A stretch of DNA of 64,000 nucleotides from Psychromonas sp. 14N.309.X.WAT.B.A12. GTDB lineage: Bacteria > Pseudomonadota > Gammaproteobacteria > Enterobacterales > Psychromonadaceae. Of this stretch, positions 36,006 through 55,616 are shown one piece after another. How positions within the stretch are numbered: position 1 is the stretch's first letter; every line of letters starts with the position of its first letter. Where the stretch lies: the NCBI RefSeq assembly GCF_030397575.1, contig NZ_JAPNXS010000012.1, positions 1-64,000 of the forward strand, given 5' to 3'. The position numbers and the translations under genes are program-made. Under the pieces are notes generated by a model, which had not been told where the DNA came from, made no database searches, and saw only the letters and a list, made by a program, of their open reading frames with translations.

Positions 36006-36021
36006 CACCGAGTTGAACAAT

Positions 36022-36059: not shown

Positions 36060-36104
36060 GAATGATTCATATTTCTAAAACCTTAACAATAGGTACGGCT
36101 TAGT

Positions 36105-37151: not shown

Positions 37152-37152
37152 T

Positions 37153-38682
37153 ATGAATACTCAACAAACAGCTTCGCTTAACCAAGTCGATTATACGCAA
37201 CCCATTAAACACTTTACTCAACGTCAAAGTAGTTATTATCAAGGGCACTTTACTAAGATTCAAACAGACACTCGTTTGCATATCTCTTTTAACTTTTTTG
37301 CCGCTTTATTTGGACCGCTATGGGCAGCTTCACGCAGTGTGTGGGGATTCTTTTGGGTGAGTGCGATTGCTATTTTAATCTCATCCATTTTACTTGGCCA
37401 AGGCCTCTGGGGCGAAGCGGGAGGCGGTAAACTTGCTCAAGCAGACCGTTTGTTTGCTAAGTCTCAAGAGATGGCCACCAAAGGACAAGCCGCACTAAAC
37501 AATGGAGAAGCCAACGCTAACGCTTTTTTTCGTAACTCCGATAATCTAAGAAGAGCCGCAGAAAAAGCAGTACTCGCTGCTGAAGAGAATGCCAAAGGCG
37601 CTAGTCAAAACGCTATCTATGGAGGCTTACTACTATTTGTTGTCTTCCTTATCCAAGGTTTTACTGCCAATGCTGTTTACGAGAAACAATATTGCCGCTG
37701 GCGACAAGACTCTGCGGTAGGTAGCGGCTTCCATAGCAAAGCACTATTATGTGGTATCGCTATTCTTGCCTTTATTTACCCATTAACGCTGTATCGTTTT
37801 ATTTCAGCAGAGCAAATCAGCTGGTTAGTGGAGTTTCCTTCGGATAAAGCAATTTTCAACACCACAGCCAATTGGCTTAATTCGATGTTTGACTTCCTAG
37901 CACTTAATGGTGCGAATTTCTTTGATGCTATTACACAACTGATTAACCTCTTTTTAGATGTAATTGAAACTGTGTTAGTAGGGACACCCTGGCCTGTGAT
38001 CATGATGCTAATAGTATTTATGTCATGGCGTATATCTGGGATAAAAGCTGCTTTCTATACCGCTATTGCTCTATCTTACTTAGCGTTTTTTGGTTACTGG
38101 GAAAAGAGTATGGCGACCATCTCTTTATTAGGTGCTGCTGCGGTGATTTGTGTTGTTGTTGGTGTGCCACTCGGAGTGTTGTGTGCCAAAAACAAAACTA
38201 TCGATTCAATTACTAAACCTGCACTGGATTTCATGCAAACCATGCCGGCCTTTGTTTACCTGATTCCGATCATTGCATTCTTCGGAACAGGCAAACCACC
38301 GGGAGTGTTAGCGACCATTATTTTCGGTATGCCACCAGTAGTACGTTTAACGACATTAGGTATCCAACAAGTTCCCGCCTCGATTGTTGAGGGTGCATTA
38401 GCCTTTGGTTGTTCACGTAAAAAGTTATTACTGGATGTCGAACTACCATTAGCAAAATCAAGTATTTTGGCTGGTATTAACCAAACTATTTTAATGTGTT
38501 TATCAATGGTGGTTATCGCCTCATTGATCGGTGCAGAAGGCTTAGGGACAGATGTCCTACAAGCATTACAGTTTGCAGCAAAAGGACAAGGTTTATTAGC
38601 GGGTTTAGCGATTCTATTTTGCGCGATTATGATTGACCGTATCATTCAGGGTCTATTTAAACCCAAGGAAAAAACAGAATAA
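37153..38682 (+). CDS. ProW-type ABC permease fused to an N-terminal DUF2628-like membrane region
   Basis: A 509-aa permease. The C-terminal 200 residues are a normal ProW/OpuAB channel domain: LDFMQTMPAFVYLIPIIAFFG and the EAA-type loop GALAFGCSRKKLLLDVELP are readable. The first 220 residues are extra. They hold a DUF2628-like stretch (FNFFAALFGPLWAASRSVWG, two hydrophobic helices), an Ala/Glu/Asn-rich helical segment (about 90-150, possibly a coiled coil) and further helices with CRWRQD. The extension could be a regulatory or scaffolding module for the transporter; its function is unknown. Sequence continuity and the single frame argue against a sequencing artefact. Confidence 0.85.
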   Translation: MNTQQTASLNQVDYTQPIKHFTQRQSSYYQGHFTKIQTDTRLHISFNFFAALFGPLWAASRSVWGFFWVSAIAILISSILLGQGLWGEAGGGKLAQADRLFAKSQEMATKGQAALNNGEANANAFFRNSDNLRRAAEKAVLAAEENAKGASQNAIYGGLLLFVVFLIQGFTANAVYEKQYCRWRQDSAVGSGFHSKALLCGIAILAFIYPLTLYRFISAEQISWLVEFPSDKAIFNTTANWLNSMFDFLALNGANFFDAITQLINLFLDVIETVLVGTPWPVIMMLIVFMSWRISGIKAAFYTAIALSYLAFFGYWEKSMATISLLGAAAVICVVVGVPLGVLCAKNKTIDSITKPALDFMQTMPAFVYLIPIIAFFGTGKPPGVLATIIFGMPPVVRLTTLGIQQVPASIVEGALAFGCSRKKLLLDVELPLAKSSILAGINQTILMCLSMVVIASLIGAEGLGTDVLQALQFAAKGQGLLAGLAILFCAIMIDRIIQGLFKPKEKTE

Positions 38683-38743
38683 CCAGTAATAAAAATTACT
38701 ACATTTTAATTAGCACTTATGCACAACAGATAGAAGGTAAGTT

Positions 38744-39493
38744 ATGAAAATATTAATTATGGTAAAACGAGTAACCGATCCAAACGTCACTATTAGACCT
38801 AATATGGATAGTAGTAATGTTGACCTAACTAACGTAAAAATGGCAATGAACCCTTTCTGTGAAATTGCTACAGAAGAAGCAATTCGCTTAAAAGAAGCAG
38901 GAATTGCTTCGGAAGTTATCGTTCTGTCTATTGGGGATAAGCAATCTCAAGATCAAATCAGAACATCCTTAGCAATGGGTGCTGACCGAGGCATTTTAAT
39001 TGAAACTGACGCAACGTTAGAGCCACTTAATATCGCTAAGCTAGCAGCTAAAGTTATTGAAGAAGAAGAGATTGATCTCGTGTTACTGGGTAAACAATCC
39101 AGTGATAAAGACAACAACCAAACAGGACAAATGCTAGCTGCAATCAAAGATTGGGGACAAGCAACCTTCGCCTCTAAATTATACATTAGCAATGAAAAAG
39201 CGACCGTAACACGTGAAGTTGATACCGGCTTACAAACTATCGAGCTGACTTTACCTGCCATTGTGACCTGTGACTTACGCTTAAACACACCTCGCTTTGC
39301 TTCTTTACCTAATATTATGAAAGCAAAACGTAAACCATTAGTGATTAAGCCTATTGAAGAGTTTGGCCTAGATTTAACACCGCGCTTTAAAATGTTAAAT
39401 GTAGAGTCTCCACAAGTACGCGAAGCTGGCGATATTTTAGGCTCTGTTGATGAGCTACTTGAGAAACTAAAAACAACAGAAGGAGTACTATAA
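38744..39493 (+). CDS. etfB: electron transfer flavoprotein beta subunit
   Basis: The AMP-binding beta subunit of the ETF heterodimer, 249 aa. It begins MKILIMVKRVTDPNV and has the ETF_beta signature: LKEAGIASEVIVLSIGD, LAMGADRGILIE and LLGKQSSDKDNNQTGQMLA. With etfA (TAATG overlap) and etfQO it forms the electron path from the N-demethylating dehydrogenase to quinone. Group I ETF, not the bifurcating type by context (no acyl-CoA or flavodoxin-linked partner is nearby). Confidence 0.95.
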   Translation: MKILIMVKRVTDPNVTIRPNMDSSNVDLTNVKMAMNPFCEIATEEAIRLKEAGIASEVIVLSIGDKQSQDQIRTSLAMGADRGILIETDATLEPLNIAKLAAKVIEEEEIDLVLLGKQSSDKDNNQTGQMLAAIKDWGQATFASKLYISNEKATVTREVDTGLQTIELTLPAIVTCDLRLNTPRFASLPNIMKAKRKPLVIKPIEEFGLDLTPRFKMLNVESPQVREAGDILGSVDELLEKLKTTEGVL

Positions 39494-40419
39494 TGACTAT
39501 TTTAATTATCGCAGAGCACGACAACAGCAGTCTAAAAGAGATCACTCTGAATACGATCACAGCCGCAACACAGATTGGTGGTGATATCGACCTATTAATC
39601 GCGGGCGAAGATTGTGCGGCAGCGGCAGAAGCAGCCGCTAAAATCAGTGGCGTAACACGTGTTTTAGTAGCAGACCAAGCTTGTTATAACGGCCAGTTAG
39701 CTGAAAATATGGCGGCACTCATTATGTCAATGGCCAGCAACTATAGTCATATACTTGCGCCTTCAACTGCGAATGGTAAAAACGTATTACCGCGCGTAGC
39801 AGCAAAACTCGATGTCTCTGTTTTATCGGATATCATTTCCGTTGAAAGTCCAGATACCTTCAAGCGCTCTATTTATGCCGGTAATATCATTGCTACTTTA
39901 CAATCTCTTGATCCAATTAAACTACTCACTGTACGCGGTACTTCATTTTCTCCTGCAGAACAAAATGGAAGCGCATTCATAAAGGTAGTAGATGGTGCCT
40001 TTGATGAAGCATTATCACTGTTTATTAACAACGACTCTGTGGTGAATGAACGCCCAGAATTAACCTCTGCCAAAATCGTTATTTCTGGTGGTCGTGGTAT
40101 GCAAAACGGTGAGAACTTCTCGATGTTAGAAAAGGTGGCTGACAAGGTCGGTGCAGCCGTAGGTGCAACACGCGCAGCGGTGGATGCAGGCTTTGTACCG
40201 AATGATATGCAAGTGGGTCAAACCGGTAAAATTGTTGCCCCTGATTTATATATTGCTGTTGGTATCTCTGGTGCAATTCAACATTTAGCAGGGATGAAGG
40301 AGTCTAAGGTGATTGTTGCTATCAATAAAGATCCTGAAGCACCTATTTTCCAAGTAGCTGATTATGGGATTGTGTCTGATCTATTCGACACATTACCAGA
40401 ACTAGAAAATGCCCTATAA
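39493..40419 (+). CDS. etfA: electron transfer flavoprotein alpha subunit
   Basis: FAD-binding ETF alpha subunit, 308 aa. The N-terminal alpha/beta domain leads to the C-terminal FAD domain with VISGGRGMQNGENFSML, VGATRAAVDAGFVP, QVGQTGKIVAPDLYIAVGISGAIQH and NKDPEAPIFQVADYG. The start ATG shares one base with the etfB stop codon. A LacI-type operator sequence identical to the one in the promoter region lies inside this gene at 39962-39980, encoding Q-N-G-S-A-F. Confidence 0.96.
   Translation: MTILIIAEHDNSSLKEITLNTITAATQIGGDIDLLIAGEDCAAAAEAAAKISGVTRVLVADQACYNGQLAENMAALIMSMASNYSHILAPSTANGKNVLPRVAAKLDVSVLSDIISVESPDTFKRSIYAGNIIATLQSLDPIKLLTVRGTSFSPAEQNGSAFIKVVDGAFDEALSLFINNDSVVNERPELTSAKIVISGGRGMQNGENFSMLEKVADKVGAAVGATRAAVDAGFVPNDMQVGQTGKIVAPDLYIAVGISGAIQHLAGMKESKVIVAINKDPEAPIFQVADYGIVSDLFDTLPELENAL
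39962..39980. promoter_or_regulatory. internal LacI-type operator copy within etfA
   Basis: AAAATGGAAGCGCATTCAT, identical over 19 nt to the sequence at 32482-32500 upstream of the cluster. Lac-type regulators commonly use a secondary operator inside a downstream gene for looping or roadblocking. Confidence 0.5.
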
Positions 40420-40464
40420 GCGTTAACTATATATCTATTAATTATTAAATAAAGGAGACCAACA

Positions 40465-42117
40465 ATGCGTGAATCAATGGAATTTGATGTCGTTATCGTT
40501 GGTGCAGGACCGGCAGGTCTCTCTACGGCCTGTCGATTAATGCAACAATCACAGAAAGAAGAGCGTGAATTAACCGTCTGCGTCATTGAAAAAGGCTCAG
40601 AAGTGGGCGCACATATCTTTTCTGGGGCTGTATTTGAAACACGAGCATTAGATGAGATATTTCCAGATTGGAAAGAGCGTGGTGCCCCACTCAATACACC
40701 TGTGACGAGTGATGAAATTTACCTATTAAAGAATGCTGAAAAGGCACAAAAGCTACCAAATAGTTTAGTGCCTAAAACCATGCATAACGAAGGTAACTAC
40801 ATTATCAGTGTAGGCAACCTATGCCGTTGGTTAGCAGAACAAGCAGAAGAGCTAGGTGTTGAAGTATTCCCAGGTTTCCCAGCTGCTGAAATATTATATG
40901 GCGATGATGGTGAAGTAAAAGGTGTTATCACTGGAGATATGGGCATTGATGCCAAAGGTGAGCAAAAAGCCGATTACATGCCAGGCATGGAGTTACATGG
41001 TAAATACACTATTTTCTCGGAAGGGTGTCGTGGTCATTTAGGTAAACAACTGATCAATAAATATCAGCTTGATAGCGAGTCTGATACACAGCATTACGGT
41101 ATTGGTCTTAAAGAGCTGTGGGAAATTGAGCCAAGTAAGCATAAACCAGGATTAGTAGTACATGGTGCAGGTTGGCCATTAACTAAAGAAACTAGTGGCG
41201 GCTCTTTCCTTTATCACGCAGAAAATAACCAAGTGATGGTTGGGATTGTGATTGATTTAAGTTATTCAAATCCTTTCATCAGCCCTTTTGATGAACTGCA
41301 GCGTATGAAGCATCACCCTATTTTTAAAGACACATTAGAAGGTGGTACTCGTATCTCCTACGGTGCACGTGCTATTGCAAAAGGTGGGTTAAATTCTTTA
41401 CCTAAAATGCACTTTCCAGGTGGGTTATTAATAGGTTGTGATGCTGGCACCTTAAATTTTGCCAAGATAAAAGGCACACATACAGCAATGAAGAGCGGCA
41501 TCTTAGCAGCAGAAAGTATTTTTACCGCAATCAGCAGTGAAATAACTGTTAGCAATGAGTTAAGTTCATTTACCGAGGCCTTTAAAACCTCTTGGTTACA
41601 TGAAGAGTTACACCAAACACGTAACTTTGGACCTGCAATGCATAAGTTTGGTACTTACATGGGCGGTGCATTCAATTATTTAGATCAAAACTGGTTCAAA
41701 GGAAAACTACCTTTTACTCTACATGATACTAAACCTGACCACGAACAACTTAAGCCTGCAGCAGAGTGTACTGATATTGCTTACCCTAAACCTGATAACA
41801 AAATCAGCTTTGATAAGCTTTCTTCGGTGTTTATATCCAATACCAACCATGAAGAAGATCAGCCCTGCCATCTCAAGTTAAAGAGTGAAGTAATTCCTGT
41901 AGAAAAGAACCTTGCATTATTTGCTGGTCCAGAAGCACGTTTTTGTCCTGCAGGTGTTTATGAGTTTGTTGAAAACCCAGAAAACCAACAACAGCAATTA
42001 CAAATCAATGCACAGAACTGTTTGCACTGTAAAACATGCGATATCAAAGACCCAACTCAAAATATTACTTGGCAAGTTCCTGAAGGATTAGGAGGCCCTA
42101 GTTACCCGAATATGTAG
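40465..42117 (+). CDS. electron transfer flavoprotein-ubiquinone oxidoreductase
   Basis: Membrane-associated ETF:Q oxidoreductase, 550 aa. The FAD motif VIVGAGPAGLSTACRL is at about 8-23. The middle has the ETF-QO ubiquinone-binding region with GGLNSLPKMHFPGGLLIGC. The C-terminal 4Fe-4S ligands include CPAGVYEF and the cluster motif CLHCKTCDIKDP at about 522-533. AAGGAGA precedes the ATG. Passes ETF electrons to the quinone pool. Its presence in the cluster with etfBA makes the pathway independent of a housekeeping ETF. Confidence 0.95.
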   Translation: MRESMEFDVVIVGAGPAGLSTACRLMQQSQKEERELTVCVIEKGSEVGAHIFSGAVFETRALDEIFPDWKERGAPLNTPVTSDEIYLLKNAEKAQKLPNSLVPKTMHNEGNYIISVGNLCRWLAEQAEELGVEVFPGFPAAEILYGDDGEVKGVITGDMGIDAKGEQKADYMPGMELHGKYTIFSEGCRGHLGKQLINKYQLDSESDTQHYGIGLKELWEIEPSKHKPGLVVHGAGWPLTKETSGGSFLYHAENNQVMVGIVIDLSYSNPFISPFDELQRMKHHPIFKDTLEGGTRISYGARAIAKGGLNSLPKMHFPGGLLIGCDAGTLNFAKIKGTHTAMKSGILAAESIFTAISSEITVSNELSSFTEAFKTSWLHEELHQTRNFGPAMHKFGTYMGGAFNYLDQNWFKGKLPFTLHDTKPDHEQLKPAAECTDIAYPKPDNKISFDKLSSVFISNTNHEEDQPCHLKLKSEVIPVEKNLALFAGPEARFCPAGVYEFVENPENQQQQLQINAQNCLHCKTCDIKDPTQNITWQVPEGLGGPSYPNM

Positions 42118-42216
42118 TGTGAATTAATCGGCAGTGAACCAGATCAAAACATGTTTCATCGCCATCAACTAATAGCGTAACGCTTCTATTGAAGCTCAAT
42201 ATATAAGGCATGAACA

Positions 42217-43083
42217 ATGGCAACTGAAAAACCAAAAGAGTTTATTTTTACTGCGACTTGCACAGCAAGCAGCAACATAGTGGCATCGGTCACGTCGTTT
42301 TTATCAGAACGTGGCTGTTATTTAAGTGAGTTATCTCAATTTGATGACCCTACAACTAAACGCTTTTTCATGCGTACCGTAGGGTATATTGAATCAGGCG
42401 ATCACACCTTTGAAGATCTCAGCAAAGAGTTTCCAGAAGTTGCCGAAAAATTCGATATGGATTGGAAACTAGAGCCTGCCGATAAACCGTGTAAAGTACT
42501 ATTAATGGTGAGTAAATTCGACCATTGTTTAGCCGACCTTTTATACCGCTTACACAAAGGTGAAATCAATATGGAAGTGACAGCAATTGTCTCTAACCAT
42601 AAAGATTTACGGCCTATGGCAGAGCGTGAAGGGATCCGTTTTATCTACTTACCTGTAACCAAGGACAACAAACCAGAACAAGAAAAAGCGTTGATGGAAA
42701 TTGTTGAAGAAACGGGCACAGAGCTAGTAGTATTAGCACGTTATATGCAAATTTTATCCAATGAACTCTGTGATCAATTAGCTGGCCGAGCGATTAATAT
42801 TCACCACTCTTTCTTACCTGGTTTTAAAGGTGGGAAACCTTATCATCAAGCACATGAACGCGGTGTGAAACTGATTGGTGCAACAGCTCACTATGTGACT
42901 TCTGACCTTGATGAAGGCCCTATTATCGAACAATCAGTACAAAATGTTGACCACACCTTTTCACCAGAATCACTAGTCGCTGTTGGTCGTACAACTGAAA
43001 CTGTAGCCTTAGCAAAAGCGGTGAAGCTGCACACTCAAAGTCGTACTTTCGTATACGGTAATAAAACAGTTATTTTCCGTTAA
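42217..43083 (+). CDS. purU: formyltetrahydrofolate deformylase
   Basis: Hydrolyses 10-formyl-THF to THF and formate. The N-terminal ACT domain (about 8-85) matches PurU, followed by a formyl-transferase-like domain with INIHHSFLPGFKGGKPYHQA (the catalytic His pair), and the conserved Asp in TSDLDEGPIIEQ. 288 aa is typical. It ends the dimethylglycine-type cluster, where it would regenerate THF by releasing the oxidised methyl carbon as formate. A purely purine-related role would not predict this location. Confidence 0.95.
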   Translation: MATEKPKEFIFTATCTASSNIVASVTSFLSERGCYLSELSQFDDPTTKRFFMRTVGYIESGDHTFEDLSKEFPEVAEKFDMDWKLEPADKPCKVLLMVSKFDHCLADLLYRLHKGEINMEVTAIVSNHKDLRPMAEREGIRFIYLPVTKDNKPEQEKALMEIVEETGTELVVLARYMQILSNELCDQLAGRAINIHHSFLPGFKGGKPYHQAHERGVKLIGATAHYVTSDLDEGPIIEQSVQNVDHTFSPESLVAVGRTTETVALAKAVKLHTQSRTFVYGNKTVIFR

Positions 43084-43173: not shown

Positions 43174-43917
43174 TTAATAGTCAATTTGATAATCAACAAC
43201 CACTTCACCCCAACTTAACGTGAGGTCAGCGATAATATGGTGCGCACTAAGCACTTTCTTCACAGGTAACTCTGCCATTGGTGCTAAGGCATGATTAAAC
43301 AACTCTAACGCACCTGGCCCTGACCATGCCTCTTTCACGATAACATCTTGCATATGATACTTAACTAATTGCGTAATCAGCGGAGTGTTATCTACATTAG
43401 GAATAATTTTTAATAGGTAACCCGGCTCAGTTTCCATGCTCTGTTTTACTTGTTCAAGATCCATGGCATGCCATTTGTAGGGCATAGTCGCTCTGGCTAT
43501 TTCACATTTGCCAAAAAATACTCGTCCTAAAACACAGTCTGAATCGTACAATAACTCTGGTTGTGCATACTTTTTAGGAAAGCCCCAAATTTCACGACCC
43601 GCAGCAATAGCTGGGAAGTTATTTAAATACATTTGATGAACATACTGTCCTGGTTGCCCGTTTAAGGTAACAGGAATAATCTGACCAGACTCTGTGAATG
43701 AGCCAAACCCTCTAAAGTCTTCCATCTTAATCACTTCAAACTTAACGATCGGCTGGTCGAATTTCAAAGGCTCAGGTACAACGCCATCCAATGCACTGCG
43801 GTCGGTTTCATAAGTCACAATAAAGAACTCCCTATTGATACATCGTACTTTATCTGGTCCTACTGTTGGCGCTGTAGCGGGCATCGAGGTAAGTTGTTTA
43901 ATTTTATCAAAATTCAT
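43174..43917 (-). CDS. adc: acetoacetate decarboxylase
   Basis: Decarboxylates acetoacetate to acetone and CO2 via a Schiff base on an active-site lysine. The diagnostic Lys pair appears in GREIWGFPKK, with Lys115 and Lys116 at the same numbering as the Clostridium enzyme; Lys116 lowers the pKa of Lys115. The upstream region PVTLNGQPGQYVHQMYLNN and the C-terminal beta cone fit the family. 247 aa. Its promoter shares a composite motif with that of the aminotransferase-BKACE pair, whose known by-product is acetoacetate. It is convergent with purU. Some ADC-superfamily proteins have other substrates, but the Lys pair favours real decarboxylase activity. Confidence 0.9.
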   Translation of the reverse strand: MNFDKIKQLTSMPATAPTVGPDKVRCINREFFIVTYETDRSALDGVVPEPLKFDQPIVKFEVIKMEDFRGFGSFTESGQIIPVTLNGQPGQYVHQMYLNNFPAIAAGREIWGFPKKYAQPELLYDSDCVLGRVFFGKCEIARATMPYKWHAMDLEQVKQSMETEPGYLLKIIPNVDNTPLITQLVKYHMQDVIVKEAWSGPGALELFNHALAPMAELPVKKVLSAHHIIADLTLSWGEVVVDYQIDY

Positions 43918-43959
43918 TGTTTTTTCGGCCTGTCTTAGTATCGAAAATAAAGGTGTATT

Positions 43960-44007
43960 GTTATGTGTTTAATCTAGGCTGACAAAGGAATTAAAAGACA
44001 GGGGTAT
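43960..44007 (-). promoter_or_regulatory. adc promoter with shared composite motif (copy A)
   Basis: The plus strand reads ACAAAGGAATTAAAA (43982-43996), five variable bases, then GGGTAT (44002-44007). The same arrangement occurs at 51698-51723, at the same distance (64 nt) from its start codon. On the minus strand CATAAC (43965-43960) could be a -10 element with a 17-bp spacer to CCTTTG. The poor -35 suggests activator dependence. Confidence 0.6.
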
Positions 44008-44021
44008 AACTTTATGGAATG

Positions 44022-44057
44022 CAAAAAAATACCGCGTTTACAGAGTAAACGCGGTAT
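44022..44057 (-). terminator. terminator of the TRAP permease gene
   Basis: ATACCGCGTTTA (44029-44040) pairs perfectly with TAAACGCGGTAT (44046-44057) around a 5-nt loop. The minus strand continues with a run of T residues. It follows 21 bp after the TRAP permease stop. Confidence 0.92.
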
Positions 44058-44078
44058 TAAATTAGGAACACTTAAAGG

Positions 44079-46916
44079 TTAAGCATTTACTGTTTGTGTG
44101 TTGTCTGAATGCGCCTCAGCGGCATCATTGATGTCACGACGTTTACGTTGTAATCTCATGATAATAAACAATAATAATAGCGCTGGTACATAGAACCATT
44201 GTTTAGCAGGGCGCACTACTGGCACACCTACATCGACAATAATTTGGTCAAAATCAAAGCCGACTTTTTCAGCAGTACTATCAAAACCAATACCATCAAC
44301 CATGATTGAACCATCTTCCTGTGGAAGTAGCTCTAAACCATAGTTTTCTAGACGCTCTTGGCCTGTTTCACCTTCACCAACCAGCATTAACATGGTCAGT
44401 GTCACTGGGTCACCCACATCATTTTGGCCGTTAACTAATACACGTAACTCAGTCCCCGGATCAACCTCTTCCATCACATTGACTAACTCAGTACCAGCAC
44501 GCTCATCATAAGGAGGGATCACATAGTCCATCCAGAAACCTGGACGGAATAACGTGAATGCAATAATCAATAGTGCAAATGATTCCCACAGTTTTGATTT
44601 AGCGATAAAGTAACCTTGTGTACCTGCGGTAAATATCAACATCGCCATGGTGGCGGTAATAAATATCGCTATCCCTTCTAAGAAGGTCACATCCATTAAC
44701 AATAAATCGGTGTTAAAGATGAATAGGAATGGCAATAAAGCGGTACGCAATGAGTAGAAGAAGGCAACAAAACCAGTCTTAATTGGATCCCCCCCCGATA
44801 CCGCTGCCGCCGCAAAGGATGCTAAGCCTACCGGAGGTGTTACATCAGCCATGATCCCGAAATAAAACACAAACATGTGTACTGCAATCAGTGGCACGAT
44901 CAACCCATTTTGTTGGCCTAAACTAACAATCACAGGTGCTAATAAAGACGATACAACAATATAGTTTGCGGTAGTCGGTAAGCCCATACCTAGAATAAGG
45001 CTGAGAATACCTGTCCAAACTAAGATCAACATGATCTGTCCCATGGACAAGAATTCAACCAAGGCAGCCAGTTTTAAACCAATACCCGTTTGTGATACCG
45101 CACCAACAATAATACCGGCAGCAGCTGTTGCGATAGCAATACCGATCATATTTCTTGCACCAGTGATCATACCGTCAATCAACTCACTAAAGCCTTGTTT
45201 TACCATACCTGATGTTGATTTTTTACGGAAGAAAGCAAATAGGTGACGTTGTGTTAATAGAATGAAAATCATCAGAGAAGTAGCATAGAATGCAGATAAC
45301 CCTGGTGATTTACGTTCGATCATTAGGCACCAAATTAATACCACAACAGGCAATAAGAAGTGCAATCCAGACTTCACCGTTGGGCCTGTCTCAGGCAAGC
45401 TAAGTACTGGCGAATTAGGATCGTCCATAACTAAATCAGGGTAAGCGGAGCTGATTTTTACCAATACAACATAGGTTATTGCAACTAATGCAGCCACTAC
45501 CCAGAATAGTAAATCAGGAGCAACAAAAGACTTCAACAAGCTAACTACAAAGAACAAACCAAAGGCACCAATGACTAAGTTACCTAATACAATTGCACCG
45601 GTAGAAATAGTGTTAGCTAACTTATCTTCACTGGCCTTTGCTTTGAGCTTTTTAAATACTAGGTACTGAATAGCAATAACCGCTAATACTAAACCTAAAC
45701 GAGCTTCAGTCGTTGCTAATGCCTCATACAACTCAGATAAGTAAAAAGCACCACCAGCTAATGCAATGATAGGTAACAGTGTCATTGCCCAAGAGATTAA
45801 TACGTCTTTAGCCGTTTTAACTTCACCTTCACGTGTTAAACCTTTCATATTTAACTTCATCGCTTCTAAATGCACGATATAAACCAATGCAATATAAGAG
45901 ATGATAGCCGGTAAGAAAGCATGTTTTACTACGTCAAAGTAAGGAATATTCACATATTCCACCATTAAGAACGCCGCCGCTCCCATTACTGGAGGCATGA
46001 TTTGACCATTAACCGATGAAGCAACTTCTACAGCGCCAGCCTTTTCAGAAGAGAAACCAACACGTTTCATCATCGGAATTGTAAAGGTACCTGTGGTTAC
46101 TACGTTAGCAATCGAAGAACCAGAAATAAGCCCAGTCATACCCGATGCAACTACTGCTGCTTTTGCAGGACCACCACGTAGATGGCCCATTAAAGAGAAA
46201 GCAACTTTAATGAAGTAGTTACCTGCGCCCGCACGATCTAATAACGCACCAAACAGTACAAATAAGAATACAAGGTCCGTTGATACCCCTAGCGCAATAC
46301 CAAATACGCCTTCAGAAAATAGCCATTGATGGTCCATAACACCACCAAATGTTGAACCTTTCCAAGCAATCAACTCAGGTGCATAAGGCCCTAAGAAGGT
46401 ATAACCTAAGAAAATCATAGCAACCACCATCAATGGTGGACCTAAGGCACGTCTAGTGGCTTCTAGTAAAGTCAGCATTCCCACAATAGCCACACCGATA
46501 TCCACAGGATTAGGCGCACTTGGGCGGTCGCTTAAGCGAATGCCAAAAATACTATCCACTAACATGGAATCAGCAATAAATGGATACAAAGCACAAAGGC
46601 TGGCAATGATCGCTAATCCCCAATCAGCCATTGGTACTTTGCTGCGTGAAGAAGCTTTAAAAGCTGGATAAGCAAGGAAGGCTAAGAAGATAGCAAACCC
46701 TAAATGGATTGATCTTGCTTCCCCACTTGAGAATACACCCCAACCAAATAAGAAAGGCAGAGGAGATGCGATCCAAACTTGGAATATAGACCAAGTTAAC
46801 GCCACACCCGCCATCAATTTAACTATCTTTTGATTGGTTGGATTTCTTCCTCCGGTATCGGTGGAAGCGACGAGATCTTGTAATTCCTCATCATTCATTA
46901 GTGTTTTTTCAGTCAT
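44079..46916 (-). CDS. TRAP transporter fused permease (DctQM) with DUF3394 tail
   Basis: A TRAP 4TM/12TM fusion permease of about 945 aa, the type that pairs with TAXI binding proteins. Many hydrophobic helices span the whole length, with DctM family segments such as SGSSIANVVTTGTFTIP, GQIMPPVMGAAAFLM and LGMGLPTTANYIV. A soluble DUF3394-like region (about 795-905) and a final transmembrane helix with RLQRKRRD end the protein. I chose the start at 46916 (MTEKTLMNDEELQD) because AGGAAA precedes it; a frame start at 46946 uses TTG. It is downstream of the TAXI binding-protein gene, from which it is separated by a terminator and a long inverted repeat. Substrate is unknown; organic acids, sialate-like or zwitterionic compounds occur in the family. 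Confidence 0.92.
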   Translation of the reverse strand: MTEKTLMNDEELQDLVASTDTGGRNPTNQKIVKLMAGVALTWSIFQVWIASPLPFLFGWGVFSSGEARSIHLGFAIFLAFLAYPAFKASSRSKVPMADWGLAIIASLCALYPFIADSMLVDSIFGIRLSDRPSAPNPVDIGVAIVGMLTLLEATRRALGPPLMVVAMIFLGYTFLGPYAPELIAWKGSTFGGVMDHQWLFSEGVFGIALGVSTDLVFLFVLFGALLDRAGAGNYFIKVAFSLMGHLRGGPAKAAVVASGMTGLISGSSIANVVTTGTFTIPMMKRVGFSSEKAGAVEVASSVNGQIMPPVMGAAAFLMVEYVNIPYFDVVKHAFLPAIISYIALVYIVHLEAMKLNMKGLTREGEVKTAKDVLISWAMTLLPIIALAGGAFYLSELYEALATTEARLGLVLAVIAIQYLVFKKLKAKASEDKLANTISTGAIVLGNLVIGAFGLFFVVSLLKSFVAPDLLFWVVAALVAITYVVLVKISSAYPDLVMDDPNSPVLSLPETGPTVKSGLHFLLPVVVLIWCLMIERKSPGLSAFYATSLMIFILLTQRHLFAFFRKKSTSGMVKQGFSELIDGMITGARNMIGIAIATAAAGIIVGAVSQTGIGLKLAALVEFLSMGQIMLILVWTGILSLILGMGLPTTANYIVVSSLLAPVIVSLGQQNGLIVPLIAVHMFVFYFGIMADVTPPVGLASFAAAAVSGGDPIKTGFVAFFYSLRTALLPFLFIFNTDLLLMDVTFLEGIAIFITATMAMLIFTAGTQGYFIAKSKLWESFALLIIAFTLFRPGFWMDYVIPPYDERAGTELVNVMEEVDPGTELRVLVNGQNDVGDPVTLTMLMLVGEGETGQERLENYGLELLPQEDGSIMVDGIGFDSTAEKVGFDFDQIIVDVGVPVVRPAKQWFYVPALLLLFIIMRLQRKRRDINDAAEAHSDNTQTVNA

Positions 46917-47052
46917 CAGAAAATTTCCTATTGATACGCATGACAATGCGATCTTGTGTTACTAGAGATCATTCTAAAAATGCGTAATTGATGCTTTAGA
47001 TTATCTATATTGATATCCACTATAATCGGTAAAACTACACCGCTTACAGTTG

Positions 47053-47126
47053 AGATATACCGAAATTACTTATTGAATTGCAATCACTTTTTTAGTTTAT
47101 TGATAGTAAGTAGTTTTGGTATATCT
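47053..47126. repeat. 20-bp inverted repeat between TAXI and TRAP permease genes
   Basis: Arms AGATATACCGAAATTACTTA (47053-47072) and TAAGTAGTTTTGGTATATCT (47107-47126) match at 18 of 20 positions across 34 nt. It lies just downstream of a terminator on the minus strand and before the permease promoter region. It could be a regulator site pair or a long hairpin. Confidence 0.6.
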
Positions 47127-47135
47127 GCTTTTTTA

Positions 47136-47168
47136 AAAACAAAAAAGCGGAAGTATAACTACTCCCGC
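47136..47168 (-). terminator. terminator after the TAXI binding-protein gene
   Basis: GCGGAAGT (47147-47154) and ACTCCCGC (47161-47168) form an 8-bp stem with one wobble pair. The minus strand continues with six T residues. It lies 21 bp after the stop, so the permease is at least partly uncoupled from binding-protein expression. Confidence 0.8.
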
Positions 47169-47189
47169 TCTATTTAGCTAAGGGTTAGA

Positions 47190-48155
47190 TTACATCCAAC
47201 CTTTTTCTTTGTAGTAACGAATCGCGCCTTCATGAAGTGGAGCAGATAGATTTTTAGTGATCATATCGCTTTCTTTCAGGTTAGCAAATGCAGGGTGCAT
47301 CTTCTTGAAACGTTTAAAGTTTTCAAATACAGCTTTCACCATTTGGTAAACTGTTTCTGAATCTGTTTTAGTTGAGCTAACAAACGTAGCCGCTACACCA
47401 AATGTTGCTGTATCAGTGTCAGTACCTTTGTACATGCCTGCTGGAATACTTGTCATTGCGTAGTATGGATTATCAGACGCTAACTTTTGAGCAACGTCAT
47501 TATCAACAGGTACCAATACTGCATCACAAGAAGTGGTTGCTTCTTTGATTGAACCATTCGGATGACCAGCAACGAACACGATTGCATCGACTTTACCGTC
47601 ACATAGTGCAGCCGCTTGCTCTGAAGATTTAAGTTCAGACGCAACAGCGAAATCACTCATTTCCCAGCCCATTTTGCTCATCAATACTTCCATCGTACCG
47701 CGTTGGCCTGAACCTGGGTTACCTACGTTTACTTTTTTGCCCTTTAGATCGTCAAAGCTTTTAATACCGGCATCTGCACGAGCAACCACTGTGAACGGTT
47801 CTGCATATACAGAGAATACAGAGCGTAATTCTTTAAATGCACCTGCAGGGAATTGCTCTGGCGCAGTACCGTTGTATGCATGGAACTGCCAATCTGATTG
47901 AGCAACACCCATATCAAGATCGCCAGATTTTAGACCGTTAATGTTAGTTACTGAACCACCTGTTTTGTGAGTACAGTTAATTTCGTGCTCAGCTGTACCA
48001 CGGTTTACTAGACGACAAATAGCACCACCTACTTGATAATAAACACCCGTTTGACCACCAGTACCAATTACTACGTGTTTAGTTTCTGCAATTGCAGAAC
48101 TTGCCATGAATGTTGCGCCTACAGCCGCTGCCATTGCTAATTTTTTTAAAAACAT
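47190..48155 (-). CDS. TAXI-family TRAP solute-binding protein
   Basis: A periplasmic TAXI binding protein of about 321 aa. From 48155 (MFLKKLAMAAAVGATFMASSAIA) it has a signal peptide cut after AIA. The TAXI signature GTGGQTGVYYQVGGAICRLVN follows at the mature N-terminus. Other typical parts are FDDLKGKKVNVGNPGSGQRG and FVAGHPNGSIKEAT. AAGGAAG precedes the ATG; the upstream frame to 48209 encodes a basic peptide without ribosome binding site support. It is divergent from a LysR gene. The ligand is unknown; a beta-amino acid or zwitterion is a testable idea from the neighbouring catabolic genes. Confidence 0.9.
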   Translation of the reverse strand: MFLKKLAMAAAVGATFMASSAIAETKHVVIGTGGQTGVYYQVGGAICRLVNRGTAEHEINCTHKTGGSVTNINGLKSGDLDMGVAQSDWQFHAYNGTAPEQFPAGAFKELRSVFSVYAEPFTVVARADAGIKSFDDLKGKKVNVGNPGSGQRGTMEVLMSKMGWEMSDFAVASELKSSEQAAALCDGKVDAIVFVAGHPNGSIKEATTSCDAVLVPVDNDVAQKLASDNPYYAMTSIPAGMYKGTDTDTATFGVAATFVSSTKTDSETVYQMVKAVFENFKRFKKMHPAFANLKESDMITKNLSAPLHEGAIRYYKEKGWM

Positions 48156-48209
48156 ATTTAACTTCCTTTTAGATTTATTTCGGTGGTACTTTCCTATATA
48201 GACAAGCAA

Positions 48210-48546
48210 GAATCAAGCCTATAGAGGAAAATATGTGGACTCTCAAGTCCTTACAGAAAGGGCTGTATTAAACTCAAACACATTGCTTATTAAACAACCA
48301 CTTACATGTTCTTTTTTGGTGCGTTAATTTTATTTTCGCACCATTTTAGAGCTAACTGCCTGCCACTTTTATTTTGGTTTTGCGATGCACCAATCATGTT
48401 TATGAATACTTACTTTATAATGGTGATGATTTATGGCCTTTATCGCTTTAAATTCATACAGGTAATACTGAAACAAACTACAAATTACTTGCTTAAATAA
48501 TGCTGAAAAGCTTAACTATAACCTCAACTAATTTAGGAGAAACTCC
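48210..48546. other. divergent region between TAXI gene and LysR gene
   Basis: About 340 bp with control elements but no supportable gene. TTTCCTATA and TATAGAGGAAA form imperfect arms near 48190-48230; TGGTGCG (48317-48323) pairs with CGCACCA (48337-48343). One or both could be LysR sites. A 64-codon ORF at 48306-48500 is rejected. Confidence 0.4.
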
Positions 48547-49452
48547 GTGCTTAATGAAACCACTTTACCCTCAATAAAAGCATTACGTACTTTTGTGGCG
48601 GTGGCCGATAACATGAGTTTTTCAAAAGCAGCACAAGCGCTTTTTGTTAGCCAAGGCGCAGTGAGTAAAAATATCTCCTCCTTAGAAAAACAACTTGGGC
48701 AACCGCTATTCAATCGACGTTTAAACGGCATTGAATTAACCAGTGCAGGTGAACAATATCTACCTAAAATCATTGAAGCACTGGAAATTATTCAATATAC
48801 GACTGAAAGCTTAGTTTTGATCGATCAAGTGGAAGAAGTTTTATCATTAAATGTCACTCCTTCTTTTGCTAGCTTATGGTTAATTCCACATATACAACAA
48901 TTTTATGATCTCAATAAAAATATTCGCGTCAGAATAAAAACCGGTGATGGCATTATCAAAAAGACCAATGGAGAAAGTGATATCGCCATTCGTTGTTTAT
49001 CGGTGTCGGCTCATTATGAAAATGCCACACTATTAAGAAGAGAAAAGCTAGTGTTAGTCGCTTCACCTCAATTGTTGGCTAGTAACCCCATTAATACAAT
49101 ACAAGATGTGCAGCACTTTGATGCTATTTTCCATATCACTCGACCACGTTTATGGGAGCAATTTAAGAAACAAAATCAGTTAACCTTTAGCAGTAATTAT
49201 AGTTGTACTGGCTTTGAACATTTTTACATGTCTTTAGAAGCGGCAAAAGGCGGATTAGGATTAGCACTTTTGCCTGACTTTATGGTGCATAAATCTTTAG
49301 TGAGTGGTGAACTCATTAACCCACTTAATATCAGTATGGATACGGATTATGCTTATTATGCTTTTATACCAAGCTACCGACTCTCCTCTCGAAAGATTTA
49401 TGAGTTTAAACAATGGATCACCGCCAATTTAGGTCAAAATATCGATTTATAA
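48547..49452 (+). CDS. LysR family transcriptional regulator
   Basis: A 301-aa LTTR. The HTH is at about 8-66 (IKALRTFVAVADNMSFSKAAQALFVSQGAVSKNISSLE region), followed by a substrate-binding domain with GLALLPDFMV near residue 240, as in GcvA-like regulators. The start is a GTG preceded by AGGAGA; there is no better in-frame ATG. It lies between the TAXI-TRAP genes and the BKACE-aminotransferase pair, so it is the best candidate activator for the shared motif at 43982 and 51698. Confidence 0.9.
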   Translation: MLNETTLPSIKALRTFVAVADNMSFSKAAQALFVSQGAVSKNISSLEKQLGQPLFNRRLNGIELTSAGEQYLPKIIEALEIIQYTTESLVLIDQVEEVLSLNVTPSFASLWLIPHIQQFYDLNKNIRVRIKTGDGIIKKTNGESDIAIRCLSVSAHYENATLLRREKLVLVASPQLLASNPINTIQDVQHFDAIFHITRPRLWEQFKKQNQLTFSSNYSCTGFEHFYMSLEAAKGGLGLALLPDFMVHKSLVSGELINPLNISMDTDYAYYAFIPSYRLSSRKIYEFKQWITANLGQNIDL

Positions 49453-49465
49453 TCCCATTAACTTA

Positions 49466-50302
49466 TTATTGAGAGCGCAAAATTTGACGAAAACTATCAG
49501 CGTTATGCAAGTCGATATTTAATAAGCTACTCACTACCTTAATATCGATAATTTGTTGTGCATTACTGTCGGCAATCTCACCTTTACTATTGAAATGATT
49601 ATTTTCAAAACCGACACGAACATCCCCCCCCATCAACATGGCACTGACCAAGCATTGTTGCTCTTCAGGACCAAATGCACAGGTTGCCCAGCGCGTTTTT
49701 ACTGTTAATAATTGCTCGTTCAGAAAAGGTGCAAGATCAGTAGCTGAAGAACGTAATTGCTTATGATAACGTCCCAACACTAATAAAATATGGTGGTTTT
49801 TACTGGGCAGAACCCCTTGTTTGATCAATGAAAAATAGCGTTGTACATCTTCTACCGAGTACAGAATATATTGAGCAATGATGCCACTCTCTTCTACCCA
49901 ATGAAAAAACTGCTGCGCAACCGACAAATATGAGTCATTGGGAATTAACTCTTTCAGAGCAAAGGAGGCAGCTTCGGGTAGCGTCTCTTTGATTAACAAC
50001 ATTTGTTGTTCTGGTTGATATTGCCCAACCGCTTCAGTGGTTAATTGTACAATAATCGACTCACCAACAGCTTGCTTAACCGCTGTTAAGGTCTTGATAT
50101 TGTCATTTATCTCTAAAGAATGCAGGCCATTTTTATCACGCGCATGTAGATGCACCATGGCAGCACCGGCATCGCGACAAGCAATGACATCCTGTACAAT
50201 TTGCTCGACTGTGATAGGTACTGCAGGATGATCTTGCCGCGTTTTACGTGCGCCATTGGGCGCAACAATAATCGCAGCTTTATGCACTTGTTCAATGATC
50301 AT
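49466..50302 (-). CDS. BKACE-family beta-keto acid cleavage enzyme
   Basis: A zinc-dependent TIM-barrel enzyme of the DUF849/BKACE family (278 aa). The general reaction is beta-keto acid plus acetyl-CoA to acyl-CoA plus acetoacetate. Recognisable segments are IIVAPNGARKTRQDHPAVPIT, the metal-binding AAMVHLHARDKNG (HxH) and VQLTTEAVGQY. RVGFENNHF near residue 235 is characteristic. The start at 50302 overlaps the aminotransferase stop in an ATGA, so translation is coupled; an upstream ATG at 50311 is less likely. The neighbouring aminotransferase suggests the keto acid comes from a beta-amino acid. Family members differ widely in side chain, so the substrate is not assignable by sequence. Confidence 0.88.
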   Translation of the reverse strand: MIIEQVHKAAIIVAPNGARKTRQDHPAVPITVEQIVQDVIACRDAGAAMVHLHARDKNGLHSLEINDNIKTLTAVKQAVGESIIVQLTTEAVGQYQPEQQMLLIKETLPEAASFALKELIPNDSYLSVAQQFFHWVEESGIIAQYILYSVEDVQRYFSLIKQGVLPSKNHHILLVLGRYHKQLRSSATDLAPFLNEQLLTVKTRWATCAFGPEEQQCLVSAMLMGGDVRVGFENNHFNSKGEIADSNAQQIIDIKVVSSLLNIDLHNADSFRQILRSQ

Positions 50303-51633
50303 AATGCCCAACCTTGTGCTGCTTCGATCAGCGCTGCTTTCAATTTGCTCACCAACTCATCAAGCTGTTCATCATTAATGATAAATGGCGGAGCTAATAG
50401 AATATGGTGCCCTGCACGGCCATTAATGGTACCAGCCATTGGGTAACACATTAACCCGTGTTTCATGGCCAACTTCTTCACTACTTTATTCGCTTCAGTG
50501 GTTGCAGGTAATGGCATCTTGCTCTGTTTATCGGCCACCAGCTCAATACCAATAAATAGCCCTCGCCCTCTTATGTCGCCAACATAAGATAAAGACAGCA
50601 AAGCTTCTTTTAACTTAGCGCGTAGTTTTTTACCTTGCTCCTGTACTTTATCTAACAAGCTTTCCGACACTATGGTCTGTATTGTTGCTAATGCAGCGGC
50701 ACAAGCAACAGGATGTGCCATAAACGTATGCCCATGCTGAAAAAATCCACTACCATTGGCAATGGCGTCGTAAATTTTGCTACTGATCACCACACCACCA
50801 ATAGGCTGATAGCCTGCTCCTAAACCTTTTGCAACGGTCACTAAATCAGGGACAATGTTATCTTGTTCAAAAGCATAAAAGGTACCTGTTCGACCAATAC
50901 CACACATTACTTCATCAAGTATAAGCAGCACATCGTATTTATCACAAATTTCCCGGATACGTTGAAAGTACCCTTCCGTTGCAGGTAATGCACCAGCTGT
51001 CGCCCCCACTACTGGTTCAGCAACAAAAGCCATTACATTCTCAGCACCAAGATTTAATATTTCAGTTTCTAACTCATTTGCAACACGCAAAGAGTAATCT
51101 AACTCAGATTCATTGGCTTGTTGGTCACGGTATGCATAACAAGGTGCGATATGTTTTACTTCTGAAAGTAATGGAGTAAATTTCTCTCTGCGCCATTCGT
51201 TTCCACCCACGGCTAAAGCACCTAAGGTATTACCATGATAGCTTTGACGTCTAGCAATAAACTGCGTTTTACTCGGCTTACCAATTTCCACAAAATACTG
51301 ACGAGCCATTTTTAACGCTGACTCAACAGCTTCGGATCCACCACTAACAAAGTAAACATGGTTTAACGGCTCTGGTGCTAAATCGGTTAACAGTTTAGCT
51401 AAATCTTCACTTGGTTGATTGGTAAAAAAACCTGTATGAGCAAAAGGAATAGATTCAACCTGTTCAATCATTGCTTGTTTTACTGCAGCATGGCTATGCC
51501 CTAAGTTTGAAACTGCAGCCCCTCCACAACCATCTAAATACTGCTTGCCCTGTTGGTCGAATAAGTAAATACCATTACCACCAGTAACGATTGGAAGTTC
51601 AGAGTGACAGTGGCGATGCAGAATGTGCGTCAT
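50299..51633 (-). CDS. class III PLP-dependent aminotransferase
   Basis: An omega- or beta-amino acid aminotransferase of 444 aa. PLP features are the YHGNTLGALAVGG segment, the Asp of LILDEVMCGIGRTG and the Schiff-base Lys of VTVAKGLGAGYQPIGG. The large-domain C-terminus ends GRAGHHILLAPPFIINDEQLDEL. AAAGG precedes the ATG. It is cotranscribed with, and overlaps by four bases, the BKACE gene. The logical role is to convert a beta-amino acid to its beta-keto acid for BKACE. Class III enzymes of this subgroup accept many amines (beta-alanine, taurine, omega-amino acids), so the substrate is open. Confidence 0.88.
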   Translation of the reverse strand: MTHILHRHCHSELPIVTGGNGIYLFDQQGKQYLDGCGGAAVSNLGHSHAAVKQAMIEQVESIPFAHTGFFTNQPSEDLAKLLTDLAPEPLNHVYFVSGGSEAVESALKMARQYFVEIGKPSKTQFIARRQSYHGNTLGALAVGGNEWRREKFTPLLSEVKHIAPCYAYRDQQANESELDYSLRVANELETEILNLGAENVMAFVAEPVVGATAGALPATEGYFQRIREICDKYDVLLILDEVMCGIGRTGTFYAFEQDNIVPDLVTVAKGLGAGYQPIGGVVISSKIYDAIANGSGFFQHGHTFMAHPVACAAALATIQTIVSESLLDKVQEQGKKLRAKLKEALLSLSYVGDIRGRGLFIGIELVADKQSKMPLPATTEANKVVKKLAMKHGLMCYPMAGTINGRAGHHILLAPPFIINDEQLDELVSKLKAALIEAAQGWAL

Positions 51634-51675
51634 GTAGCTAACCTTTTATAAAATATCAATTAAGAAAGCCTGATA

Positions 51676-51723
51676 ATTATATTTTTTAGGTTGCTTTACA
51701 AAGGAATTAAAATCCACGGGTAT
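51676..51723 (-). promoter_or_regulatory. aminotransferase-BKACE promoter with shared composite motif (copy B)
   Basis: ACAAAGGAATTAAAA (51698-51712), five variable bases, then GGGTAT (51718-51723) repeat the arrangement seen upstream of adc. On the minus strand TATAAT (51681-51676) sits 17 bp from CCTTTG, a poor -35, as expected for an activator-dependent promoter. The motif lies 64 nt from the start codon, exactly as in copy A. Confidence 0.65.
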
Positions 51724-54284: not shown

Positions 54285-55616
54285 TTAGCTAATGGCTTTA
54301 TTCAGATAGGATTTCATCTCTTGAGGGGGCACCATACTGCCGCCAGTGGCCCATATTAAATGCGTTGCATTGGCCATTTTATGCTTATCTAAGTTTAATC
54401 TTTGTAAATACTCAATGTTTGCAGACACTATCATCGGACCAATCACACCCGCGACCGCTGAAGGCTCTAGTTGTAAACCTTCTAAACGATCCATCTTTTC
54501 TAGGTAGTTATACATAGTTTGATCGGACAAAGTGTAATAGCCATCTATTAACCCCTGCATTGAACGTCCAACAAAACCAGATGCACGCCCTACAGCTAAA
54601 CCATCGGCAGCGGTTATATTATCAATACCAATATCTTGCACCGAGATTTGATCATGCAACCCAGTATACACTCCTAATAACATACAAGGAGAATGTGTCG
54701 GCTCTGCAAAAATACAATGTACATGCTCCCCAAAAGCAACCTTTAACCCAAATGCAACACCGCCCGGCCCACCACCAACACCACAAGGTAGATAAACAAA
54801 CAATGGGTGGTCTTGATCGACTTTAACTCCCAACTCAATAAACTGTTGCAATAAACGCTGACCTGCAACCGAGTAACCTAAAAACAATGTTTGCGAATTT
54901 TCATCGTCGATAAAGAAACAACTAGCATCCTGCTCAGCTTCTTTTCTCCCCTGCGCCACCGCAACACCATAATCTTGCTCATACTCGACAACATTAACAC
55001 CATGCGCTCGTAACTTGTCTTTTTTCCATTGCCGTGCATCAGCAGACATATGAACAGAAACAGAGAAACCTAACTTAGCACTAATAATGCCAATGGATAC
55101 CCCTAAATTACCAGTGGAGCCAACAGCAATGCGGTATTGGCTAAAGAACTGCTGAAAGGATTCAGAATACAACTTTCCATAATCATCCCCCTCTTCTAAC
55201 AACCCTGCTTGTATCGCTAGTTTTTCAGCATGAGTTAAAACTTCATAGATACCACCACGTGCTTTAATAGAGCCTGCAATAGGTAAGTGACTATCCTTCT
55301 TCAACATCAATCGTCCAGATAAAGATTGTCCATAATCAAGCTGTAATTGCTTCTTCATCTTTGCGATTTCAACCACTTCAGATTCAATAATGCCGTTGCT
55401 TTTTACTGTATCAGGAAAAGCTTGCGTCAAATAAGGTGCAAATCTTGTGAGTCGCTCACTGGCTTCCTGTATATCTTGCTTACCTAGACCAACTTGCTTT
55501 ATTCCTTGTTCAACTGAGGTAATTTTAGGGTTGAACCAACTAGTTGGTTGTAATGCTATTAGCATTTTTAATAGAGGATAGTTATCAATCAAGTTATCTA
55601 TATTCAATTTATTCAC
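54285..55616 (-). CDS. dsdA: D-serine ammonia-lyase
   Basis: A PLP-dependent enzyme that converts D-serine to pyruvate and ammonia. 443 aa, as in E. coli DsdA (442). The Schiff-base Lys is in [13 protein letters not shown], preceded by [13 protein letters not shown]. Further signatures are [13 protein letters not shown], the phosphate-binding [17 protein letters not shown] and [10 protein letters not shown]. No dsdC or dsdX is adjacent, so it depends on another regulator and carrier. Detoxifies or consumes D-serine. Confidence 0.95.

Follow-up and report, generated by a model that had tools for sequence, protein, structure and literature searches.

What does Psychromonas sp. 14N.309.X.WAT.B.A12 degrade with a class III aminotransferase (AT), an enzyme of the DUF849 or beta-keto acid cleavage enzyme (BKACE) family and an acetoacetate decarboxylase (ADC), and do these neighboring genes form one system? 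All three are encoded in the stretch of DNA analyzed here, positions 1 to 64,000 of contig NZ_JAPNXS010000012.1 (64,000 nucleotides, hereafter the window). A preliminary description had proposed that the AT makes a beta-keto acid from an imported beta-amino acid, that an ordinary BKACE cleaves it and that ADC removes the resulting acetoacetate. Our analysis puts at about one in two the probability of a small regulon that breaks down an acidic amino acid and would yield acetoacetate and then, in this strain, acetone. The gene content of the locus, the conservation of the AT-DUF849 pair, a shared promoter motif and the phyletic and physical links to acetoacetate-handling genes were observed directly. 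The first scheme appears right in outline on regulation and acetoacetate disposal, and too strong in making ADC a part of the system and the BKACE an ordinary one.

Genes of the locus and a motif shared by AT and ADC

Strong family matches confirmed the six genes at their described places and strands (minus unless marked). The AT gene (50299-51633) belongs to the PRK07483 family (744 bits, cut-off 485), whose model specifies no substrate-specific activity. It is followed by the gene of the DUF849/BKACE-family enzyme (49466-50311; PF05853), which falls in a non-canonical subfamily. An in-frame ATG of the latter (50302-50300) overlaps the AT stop codon TGA (50301-50299), so that the ATGA overlap reported earlier is seen in the sequence, and the ATG at 50302 is probably the true start codon. 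Between this pair and ADC lie a LysR-type regulator gene (48547-49452, plus strand; nearest to GcvA, below the cut-off of the GcvA model), a TAXI solute-binding protein gene (47190-48209; TIGR02122, 340.9 bits) whose product probably starts at an ATG near 48155 and carries a signal peptide, and a gene for a TAXI-type tripartite ATP-independent periplasmic (TRAP) fused permease with a DUF3394 domain (44079-46946; TIGR02123, 657.2 bits; PF06808 and PF11874). The ADC gene itself (43174-43917) scored 338.1 bits against PRK02265 (cut-off 150) and 237.3 bits against PF06314. Alignment with the solved chain 3bh2, which we take to be the ADC of Clostridium acetobutylicum, confirmed the Lys115-Lys116 pair and also placed Arg29 and Glu76; all four residues presumably have roles in the enzyme, Lys115 as the Schiff-base lysine.

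The promoter motif reported before both AT and ADC was confirmed. Exact copies of ACAAAGGAATTAAAANNCANGGGTAT occur at two places only in the 3.77-Mb genome, upstream of ADC (43982-44007, minus strand) and upstream of the AT-DUF849 operon (51698-51723, minus strand), and each lies 64 bases from the start codon of its gene. The same scan gave one extra site at 3 mismatches, and the reversed-pattern control gave 0. A hairpin with a T run that resembles an intrinsic terminator (44028-44058, minus strand; -19.1 kcal/mol, z -5.4) directly follows the TRAP gene, upstream of ADC, and ADC is therefore inferred to be its own transcription unit. Of 84 given loci, 77 had an AT match preceded by 150 bases or more, and in 31 of these 77 the generalized form of the motif, ATACCC-N14-[CG]TTTG, stands upstream of AT with no more than one mismatch (26 matches are exact). 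By comparison, 200 shuffles in two-base blocks averaged 0.21 and reached 2 at most, and reversed sequences gave 1. The generalized motif was drawn up from the same upstream sequences, hence this test is not independent, and many of the 31 loci are from close species and amount to fewer than 31 independent cases. A second Psychromonas genome, G015, carries the motif before both AT and ADC, the ADC copy with one difference in the core. That AT and ADC share the motif both in the window and in G015 supports the proposal that AT-DUF849 and ADC belong to one regulon. We infer that the neighboring LysR protein binds the motif and that its regulon recruited ADC.

The conserved pair and its link to acetoacetate-handling genes

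To place the locus among its relatives, we used the loci of the best 80 of at least 562 confirmed DUF849 relatives from a pattern scan of a named genome collection; several of the 80 are close relatives and the counts ignore phylogeny. Most come from Vibrio, Photobacterium, Grimontia, Enterovibrio, Marinobacterium, Psychromonas and Ralstonia. In 73 of the 80, AT immediately precedes DUF849 on the same strand, in most cases overlapping it, and tblastn found no AT match in the other 7. Fifty of the 80 have a LysR match with an identity of 35% or more, 48 a TAXI gene and 16 a TRAP permease. Thirty-two of the 48 TAXI-bearing loci had no match to the TRAP permease of the window (in three the contig stops shortly afterward), and the binding proteins of these loci may work with a common permease from another part of the genome, for instance VcGluQM. 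Across the window genome and 59 relatives, a DUF849 protein was found in 10 of 60 genomes. These include 7 of 24 Psychromonas genomes, the window's among them, and AT adjoins it in all 7. G015, G020 and G009 keep the order AT-DUF849-LysR-TAXI-TRAP, which is rearranged in G012, while G003 has AT-DUF849-LysR only, within the stretch viewed.

Two further observations were recorded. A thiolase homolog stands about 4 kb upstream of AT (about 3.1-4.4 kb in the locus) in 12 Grimontia and Enterovibrio loci (L065, L067, L069-L071, L074, L075, L077, L079, L089, L091 and L102), which may be plain synteny. Some DUF849 matches contain one internal stop, TAG in G070, G244, G252 and G270, TAA in G117 and TGA in G197. 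Because G117 has an intact 284-aa open reading frame, its match probably runs past the real gene.

Co-occurrence of all three enzymes had been suggested as a check of the first scheme. The part concerning AT and DUF849 stood, as given above, and the part concerning ADC did not. Among the 24 Psychromonas genomes ADC occurs in 2, that of the window and G015, and of 42 other genomes with the DUF849 subfamily 2 have it, there outside the fetched loci; the 42 derive from 43 of the 80 loci, L043 being left out. Within the 80 loci, ADC was seen in L026 only (the locus of G015) and a CoA-transferase in L033 only. ADC was rejected as a standing partner of AT-DUF849 on the 2/24 and 2/42 counts, and the commoner partner turned out to be a CoA-transferase.

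The distribution of this CoA-transferase ties the pair to acetoacetate. The cut-off of its model, TIGR02428, was exceeded in 6 of 24 Psychromonas genomes, each of which has the pair, and was not found in the window genome, the sole pair genome of the genus that lacks it. Counting CoA-transferase or ADC, 7/7 genomes with the pair had an acetoacetate sink vs 0/17 without it (Fisher test, 5e-5 for CoA-transferase alone and 3e-6 for either sink). In G003, G009, G012 and G020, thiolase and atoE genes accompany those of the CoA-transferase; in G015 the stretch viewed shows the CoA-transferase genes without a thiolase. A similar association was seen in 196 genomes of Vibrio, the genus of G063 (L034), where a match above 200 bits defined the subfamily: DUF849 of this subfamily was present in 53 and a TIGR02428 CoA-transferase over cut-off in 43, the latter in 25 of 53 genomes with the subfamily vs 18 of 143 without (p 8e-7). 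Eight of those 18 carry another DUF849 protein, and 8 of the 10 Vibrio genomes with only such another protein have the CoA-transferase. Physical linkage was found in three Vibrio genomes, as a contiguous AT-DUF849-atoD-atoA operon (L127), as thiolase-atoD-atoA beside AT-DUF849-TAXI (L128) and as atoDA beside AT-DUF849 (L126, the same place as L033). The phyletic pattern in the genus, together with CoA-transferase and thiolase genes in Vibrio loci, supports the earlier proposal that acetoacetate is the product and ADC its sink. A dedicated sink makes sense because acetoacetate inhibits a BKACE, BKACE15, with a half-maximal inhibitory concentration of 1.45 mM in an excerpt of PMC11961710.

Leucine was considered as another source of acetoacetate and is unlikely, since 3-hydroxy-3-methylglutaryl-CoA (HMG-CoA) lyase was over its cut-off in 0 of 24 Psychromonas genomes, the window's included (3 of 14 controls were over it). 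Weaker matches in 23 of 24, at most 74 bits vs 246, we take to be related enzymes. As the window genome has neither a TIGR02428 CoA-transferase nor an HMG-CoA lyase over cut-off, acetone is its likely end product. Acetoacetyl-CoA synthetase (TIGR01217) gave nothing over cut-off in the 24 genomes and likewise nothing in the 14 controls, and a scan for acetone carboxylase (PF08882) had no match, its control matching nowhere either.

Active site of the DUF849 enzyme and the putative imported substrate

Several observations weigh against a regulon that makes acetoacetate through this pair. The motif is absent at one mismatch or fewer from 46 of the 77 AT upstream regions. Three of the 17 Psychromonas genomes without the pair are less than 90% complete, the DUF849 protein of one of the seven with it (G021) is only 42% identical, and the counts in Psychromonas and Vibrio ignore shared ancestry (the ato proteins of G003 and G012 are 97-99% identical). 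In Vibrio, 28 of the 53 genomes with the subfamily had no TIGR02428 CoA-transferase over cut-off, so that acetoacetate is either handled otherwise there or not made. TIGR02428 itself includes other 3-oxoacid CoA-transferases, and another activation of acetoacetate in the window genome, scanned with TIGR02428 and TIGR01217, is possible. The L105 locus of Sneathiella sedimenti has a DUF849 gene and no AT in 20 kb. The remaining points concern the enzyme: Ile replaces Glu143 of Kce (E171 of BKACE15) in 80/80 subfamily members, Asn replaces Asp231, beside the Zn ligand Glu230, in 80/80, and the specific BKACE equivalogs of NCBIfam score far below their cut-offs.

In L105 the subfamily DUF849 gene stands with DctP and DctM TRAP genes and a divergent thiolase (8495-14204), an arrangement for which import of a keto acid or another dicarboxylate is possible.

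Membership of the DUF849/BKACE family is given by the PF05853 match (202.8 bits vs a gathering score of 24.8). The Zn ligands His46, His48 and Glu230 are kept in 80/80 members, and so is Tyr145; Arg226 is also kept. The lost Asp231 presumably has a role in BKACE catalysis. Tyr145 corresponds to Tyr173 of BKACE15 in passages of PMC12871164, and Glu143 of Kce is matched to E171 of BKACE15 because of that correspondence. E171 was proposed as the catalytic base of BKACE15, and an E171L exchange abolished activity (excerpt of PMC11961710). In the predicted model of the window's protein (mean predicted local distance difference test score, pLDDT, 91.2), Ile149 sits on strand 145-150, just before Tyr151, and the best fold match is Kce (2y7e/2y7d/2y7f; 26-27% identity, template modeling (TM) score about 0.8). 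Arg22 takes the place of Kce Glu14 in 74 of 80 members by local alignment; it is invariant in a 22-row alignment and present in at least 90% of a 34-row alignment. Two acids, Glu93 and Glu121, are invariant in the aligned subfamily members of both alignments, and the Glu93 position is Gly in the solved DUF849 chains aligned over that stretch. The claim of an ordinary BKACE was not borne out: judged by its residues, the enzyme belongs to the DUF849 family but lacks one of the features that define canonical BKACE catalysis. Its reaction may nevertheless be that of a BKACE, and Glu93 and/or Glu121 could take over the acid-base function.

The same changes would also suit a different chemistry. The DUF849 enzyme might be a metal-dependent decarboxylase, turning 3-oxoglutarate into acetoacetate and CO2, or carry out another acyl-CoA-independent cleavage; acetoacetate would still be formed, and ADC or the CoA-transferase would still remove it. 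Loss of the catalytic Glu and of Asp231 in 80/80 with the Zn ligands, Arg226 and Tyr145 kept, and the appearance of the invariant Glu93 and Glu121, speak for this, and the acetoacetate gene context is the same as for the regulon with a BKACE exchange. Bastard et al. (2014) are said to have defined DUF849 groups G1 to G7. Among these, a group without BKACE activity and with decarboxylation (group G6) and another without BKACE activity (group G7) appear in an excerpt of PMC4922564, and BsfD shows other DUF849 chemistry in passages of PMC12871164. The latter passages also hold a point on the other side, as this non-BKACE protein is marked by the loss of Tyr145, which is kept in 80/80 of the subfamily (PMC12871164). 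Moreover, 3-oxoglutarate decarboxylates spontaneously, so that an enzyme would be less needed. We regard a decarboxylase or other CoA-free cleavage as unlikely, with some weight.

The binding protein near the pair bears on what is imported. The solved chain closest to the window's TAXI protein is 8s4j. Thirteen of 13 published contact residues of VcGluP match the letters of 8s4j at one constant offset, and the VcGluP paper, describing VcGluP as an L-glutamate binder, names 8S4J once (PMC11574862); on these grounds we take 8s4j to be VcGluP. Y45, S75, Q93 and E125 of VcGluP, which contact the amino group and the carboxylates of the ligand, are kept in 50/50 pair-linked TAXI proteins (82 loci, 50 with a TAXI gene). 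At the same time S40 is changed to Gly in 50/50, D157 to Gln in 49/50 and M201 to Thr, Val or Ala, vs S40 and D157 kept in 28/28 VcGluP orthologs (at least 70% identity, from 28 of 30 fetched loci). The window's protein further has H123 changed to Tyr, Y200 to Phe and M201 to Val. D157 and S40 of VcGluP hold waters around the ligand carboxylates (excerpt of PMC11574862), and since this carboxylate water network is what changed, an amino dicarboxylate with altered geometry would fit. L-Glutamate itself may also be the substrate because a TAXI system of Cereibacter sphaeroides also serves it (passages of PMC12632250). A Ralstonia locus has, directly behind DUF849, the gene of a binding protein of the glutamate/aspartate type (PRK10797, 372.4 bits vs a cut-off of 375; one protein was scanned, from a cluster spanning 8 loci). 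The pocket and the Ralstonia protein support an imported acidic amino acid, which the evidence favors. Beta-glutamate is our best guess, proposed because it would join the binding-protein evidence with a beta-keto-acid enzyme.

If the substrate were instead beta-alanine, giving malonate semialdehyde, or another beta-amino acid, then DUF849 would give formyl-CoA or another acyl-CoA plus acetoacetate. The TAXI pocket and the Ralstonia protein indicate a dicarboxylic amino acid. Arg22 stands where Kce has a Glu that we assume to bind the substrate amino group, and an Arg there suits a carboxylate. No gene for formyl-CoA was seen among the neighbors viewed, and no search was aimed at such genes. 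A synthetic pair of beta-alanine transaminase and BKACE15 runs exactly this beta-alanine scheme in E. coli (excerpt of PMC11961710), and we still consider beta-alanine improbable here.

A proposed pathway and known systems

The preferred reading, an acidic amino acid regulon, would run as follows. An acidic amino acid, probably a dicarboxylate with a beta-amino group (beta-glutamate, for example), would enter through the TAXI-TRAP system, and the class III AT would pass the amino group on to a keto acid, leaving a beta-keto acid, which would be 3-oxoglutarate in the case of beta-glutamate. With its rearranged active site, the DUF849 enzyme would then form acetoacetate, most simply by the acetyl-CoA-dependent BKACE exchange, 3-oxoglutarate and acetyl-CoA giving malonyl-CoA and acetoacetate. 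In many relatives a CoA-transferase would activate the acetoacetate and a thiolase split the product; in the window's strain ADC, under the AT operator, would turn it into acetone and CO2. The substrate, every reaction and the binding of the motif by LysR are predictions from genes and alignments. A narrower version, in which the regulon serves marine Gammaproteobacteria in degrading the osmolyte beta-glutamate, the DUF849 enzyme works without the catalytic Glu (its acid-base function moved to Glu93 and/or Glu121, or the enzyme an acyl-CoA-independent decarboxylase) and acetone is made where ADC has replaced the CoA-transferase, is speculative and in our view somewhat unlikely.

ADC could also have an unrelated role, for instance in a response to pH or solvent, with its promoter shared by chance or recent duplication and AT-DUF849 making no acetoacetate. 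Its restriction to 2 of 24 genomes of the genus fits this, as does the correlative nature of gene-context evidence. The uniqueness of the two exact motif copies genome-wide, their identical spacing, the motif before both genes in G015 and the CoA-transferase linkage in other genomes all argue for a connection, and we find such an unrelated role quite improbable. Very improbable is that the AT acts after the DUF849 enzyme on a beta-aminoacyl-CoA, like Kat. This class III AT, active only on CoA-type thioesters, belongs with Kce and AtoDA to a variant form of lysine fermentation (excerpt of PMC3149608). Uptake here fits an acidic and not a basic amino acid, and no genes of lysine fermentation were noticed around the pair, although no search was aimed at them.

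If the acidic amino acid regulon is correct, an operon that is widespread in Vibrio, Photobacterium, Psychromonas and Oceanospirillales, and for which no described function was found, would gain a role. The DUF849 family would then include enzymes that lack the accepted catalytic base. There would be a candidate route by which an acidic beta-amino acid is turned over in the sea, and a gene behind biological acetone formation by marine bacteria would be identified.

Other genes in the window deal with nitrogenous compounds. The stretch 32586-43083 (plus strand) looks like a glycine betaine breakdown cluster with a betaine/choline-type ABC transporter and PurU; one of its proteins has weak, below-cut-off matches to sarcosine oxidase alpha and GcvT, and EtfBA and ETF-QO were assigned by reading of the sequences alone. 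The D-serine ammonia-lyase gene dsdA lies at 54285-55616 (minus strand), and the EutBC ethanolamine ammonia-lyase, an ethanolamine permease and an EutR-like regulator (the last below its cut-off) at 58036-62982. Together, the betaine cluster, dsdA and eutBC give the window the appearance of an island devoted to nitrogenous solutes. The genes dsdA and the betaine cluster were rejected as parts of the system; dsdA is next to AT or one gene off in four Psychromonas genomes only, and etfA, ETF-QO and purU adjoin the AT-DUF849 locus in G015 only.

No pathway with this exact combination had been known to the author of the preliminary description. The searches made in the open PubMed Central literature did not find BKACE with ADC, and nothing relevant appeared either on catabolism of acidic beta-amino acids or beta-glutamate by such a route. 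The nearest designed counterpart is the CORE-cycle, in which a synthetic beta-alanine:pyruvate transaminase and BKACE15 module gives acetoacetate (excerpt of PMC11961710). The two are alike in a transaminase that feeds a BKACE to acetoacetate, a product that inhibits the BKACE of the module. In the same excerpt, the CORE-cycle module is man-made, uses a canonical BKACE, beta-alanine and a CoA-transferase/thiolase, and includes no ADC, TRAP importer or regulon (PMC11961710). The importer resembles the L-glutamate transporter VcGluP-VcGluQM in its fused permease and in the Y45, S75, Q93 and E125 contacts, and differs in that S40 and D157, present in VcGluP orthologs, are replaced in the pair-linked TAXI proteins (excerpt of PMC11574862). 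Like Kce and other BKACE, the DUF849 enzyme is a TIM-barrel protein with the Zn ligands, Arg226, Tyr145 and the fold match, whereas Kce and other BKACE have Glu143, Asp231 and Glu14 where the subfamily has Ile, Asn and mostly Arg, plus the invariant Glu93/Glu121, and the curated BKACE equivalog cut-offs are not reached by the window's protein. The window's ADC is a full-length family match to the C. acetobutylicum-type enzyme with Lys115, Lys116, Glu76 and Arg29; the latter is tied to solvent formation, whereas the former is linked by its motif to an amino acid catabolic operon. Finally, the ato genes (atoDA, thiolase and atoE) fill the acetoacetate-handling role in relatives, whereas in the window genome, where TIGR02428 was not found, ADC would stand in for them.

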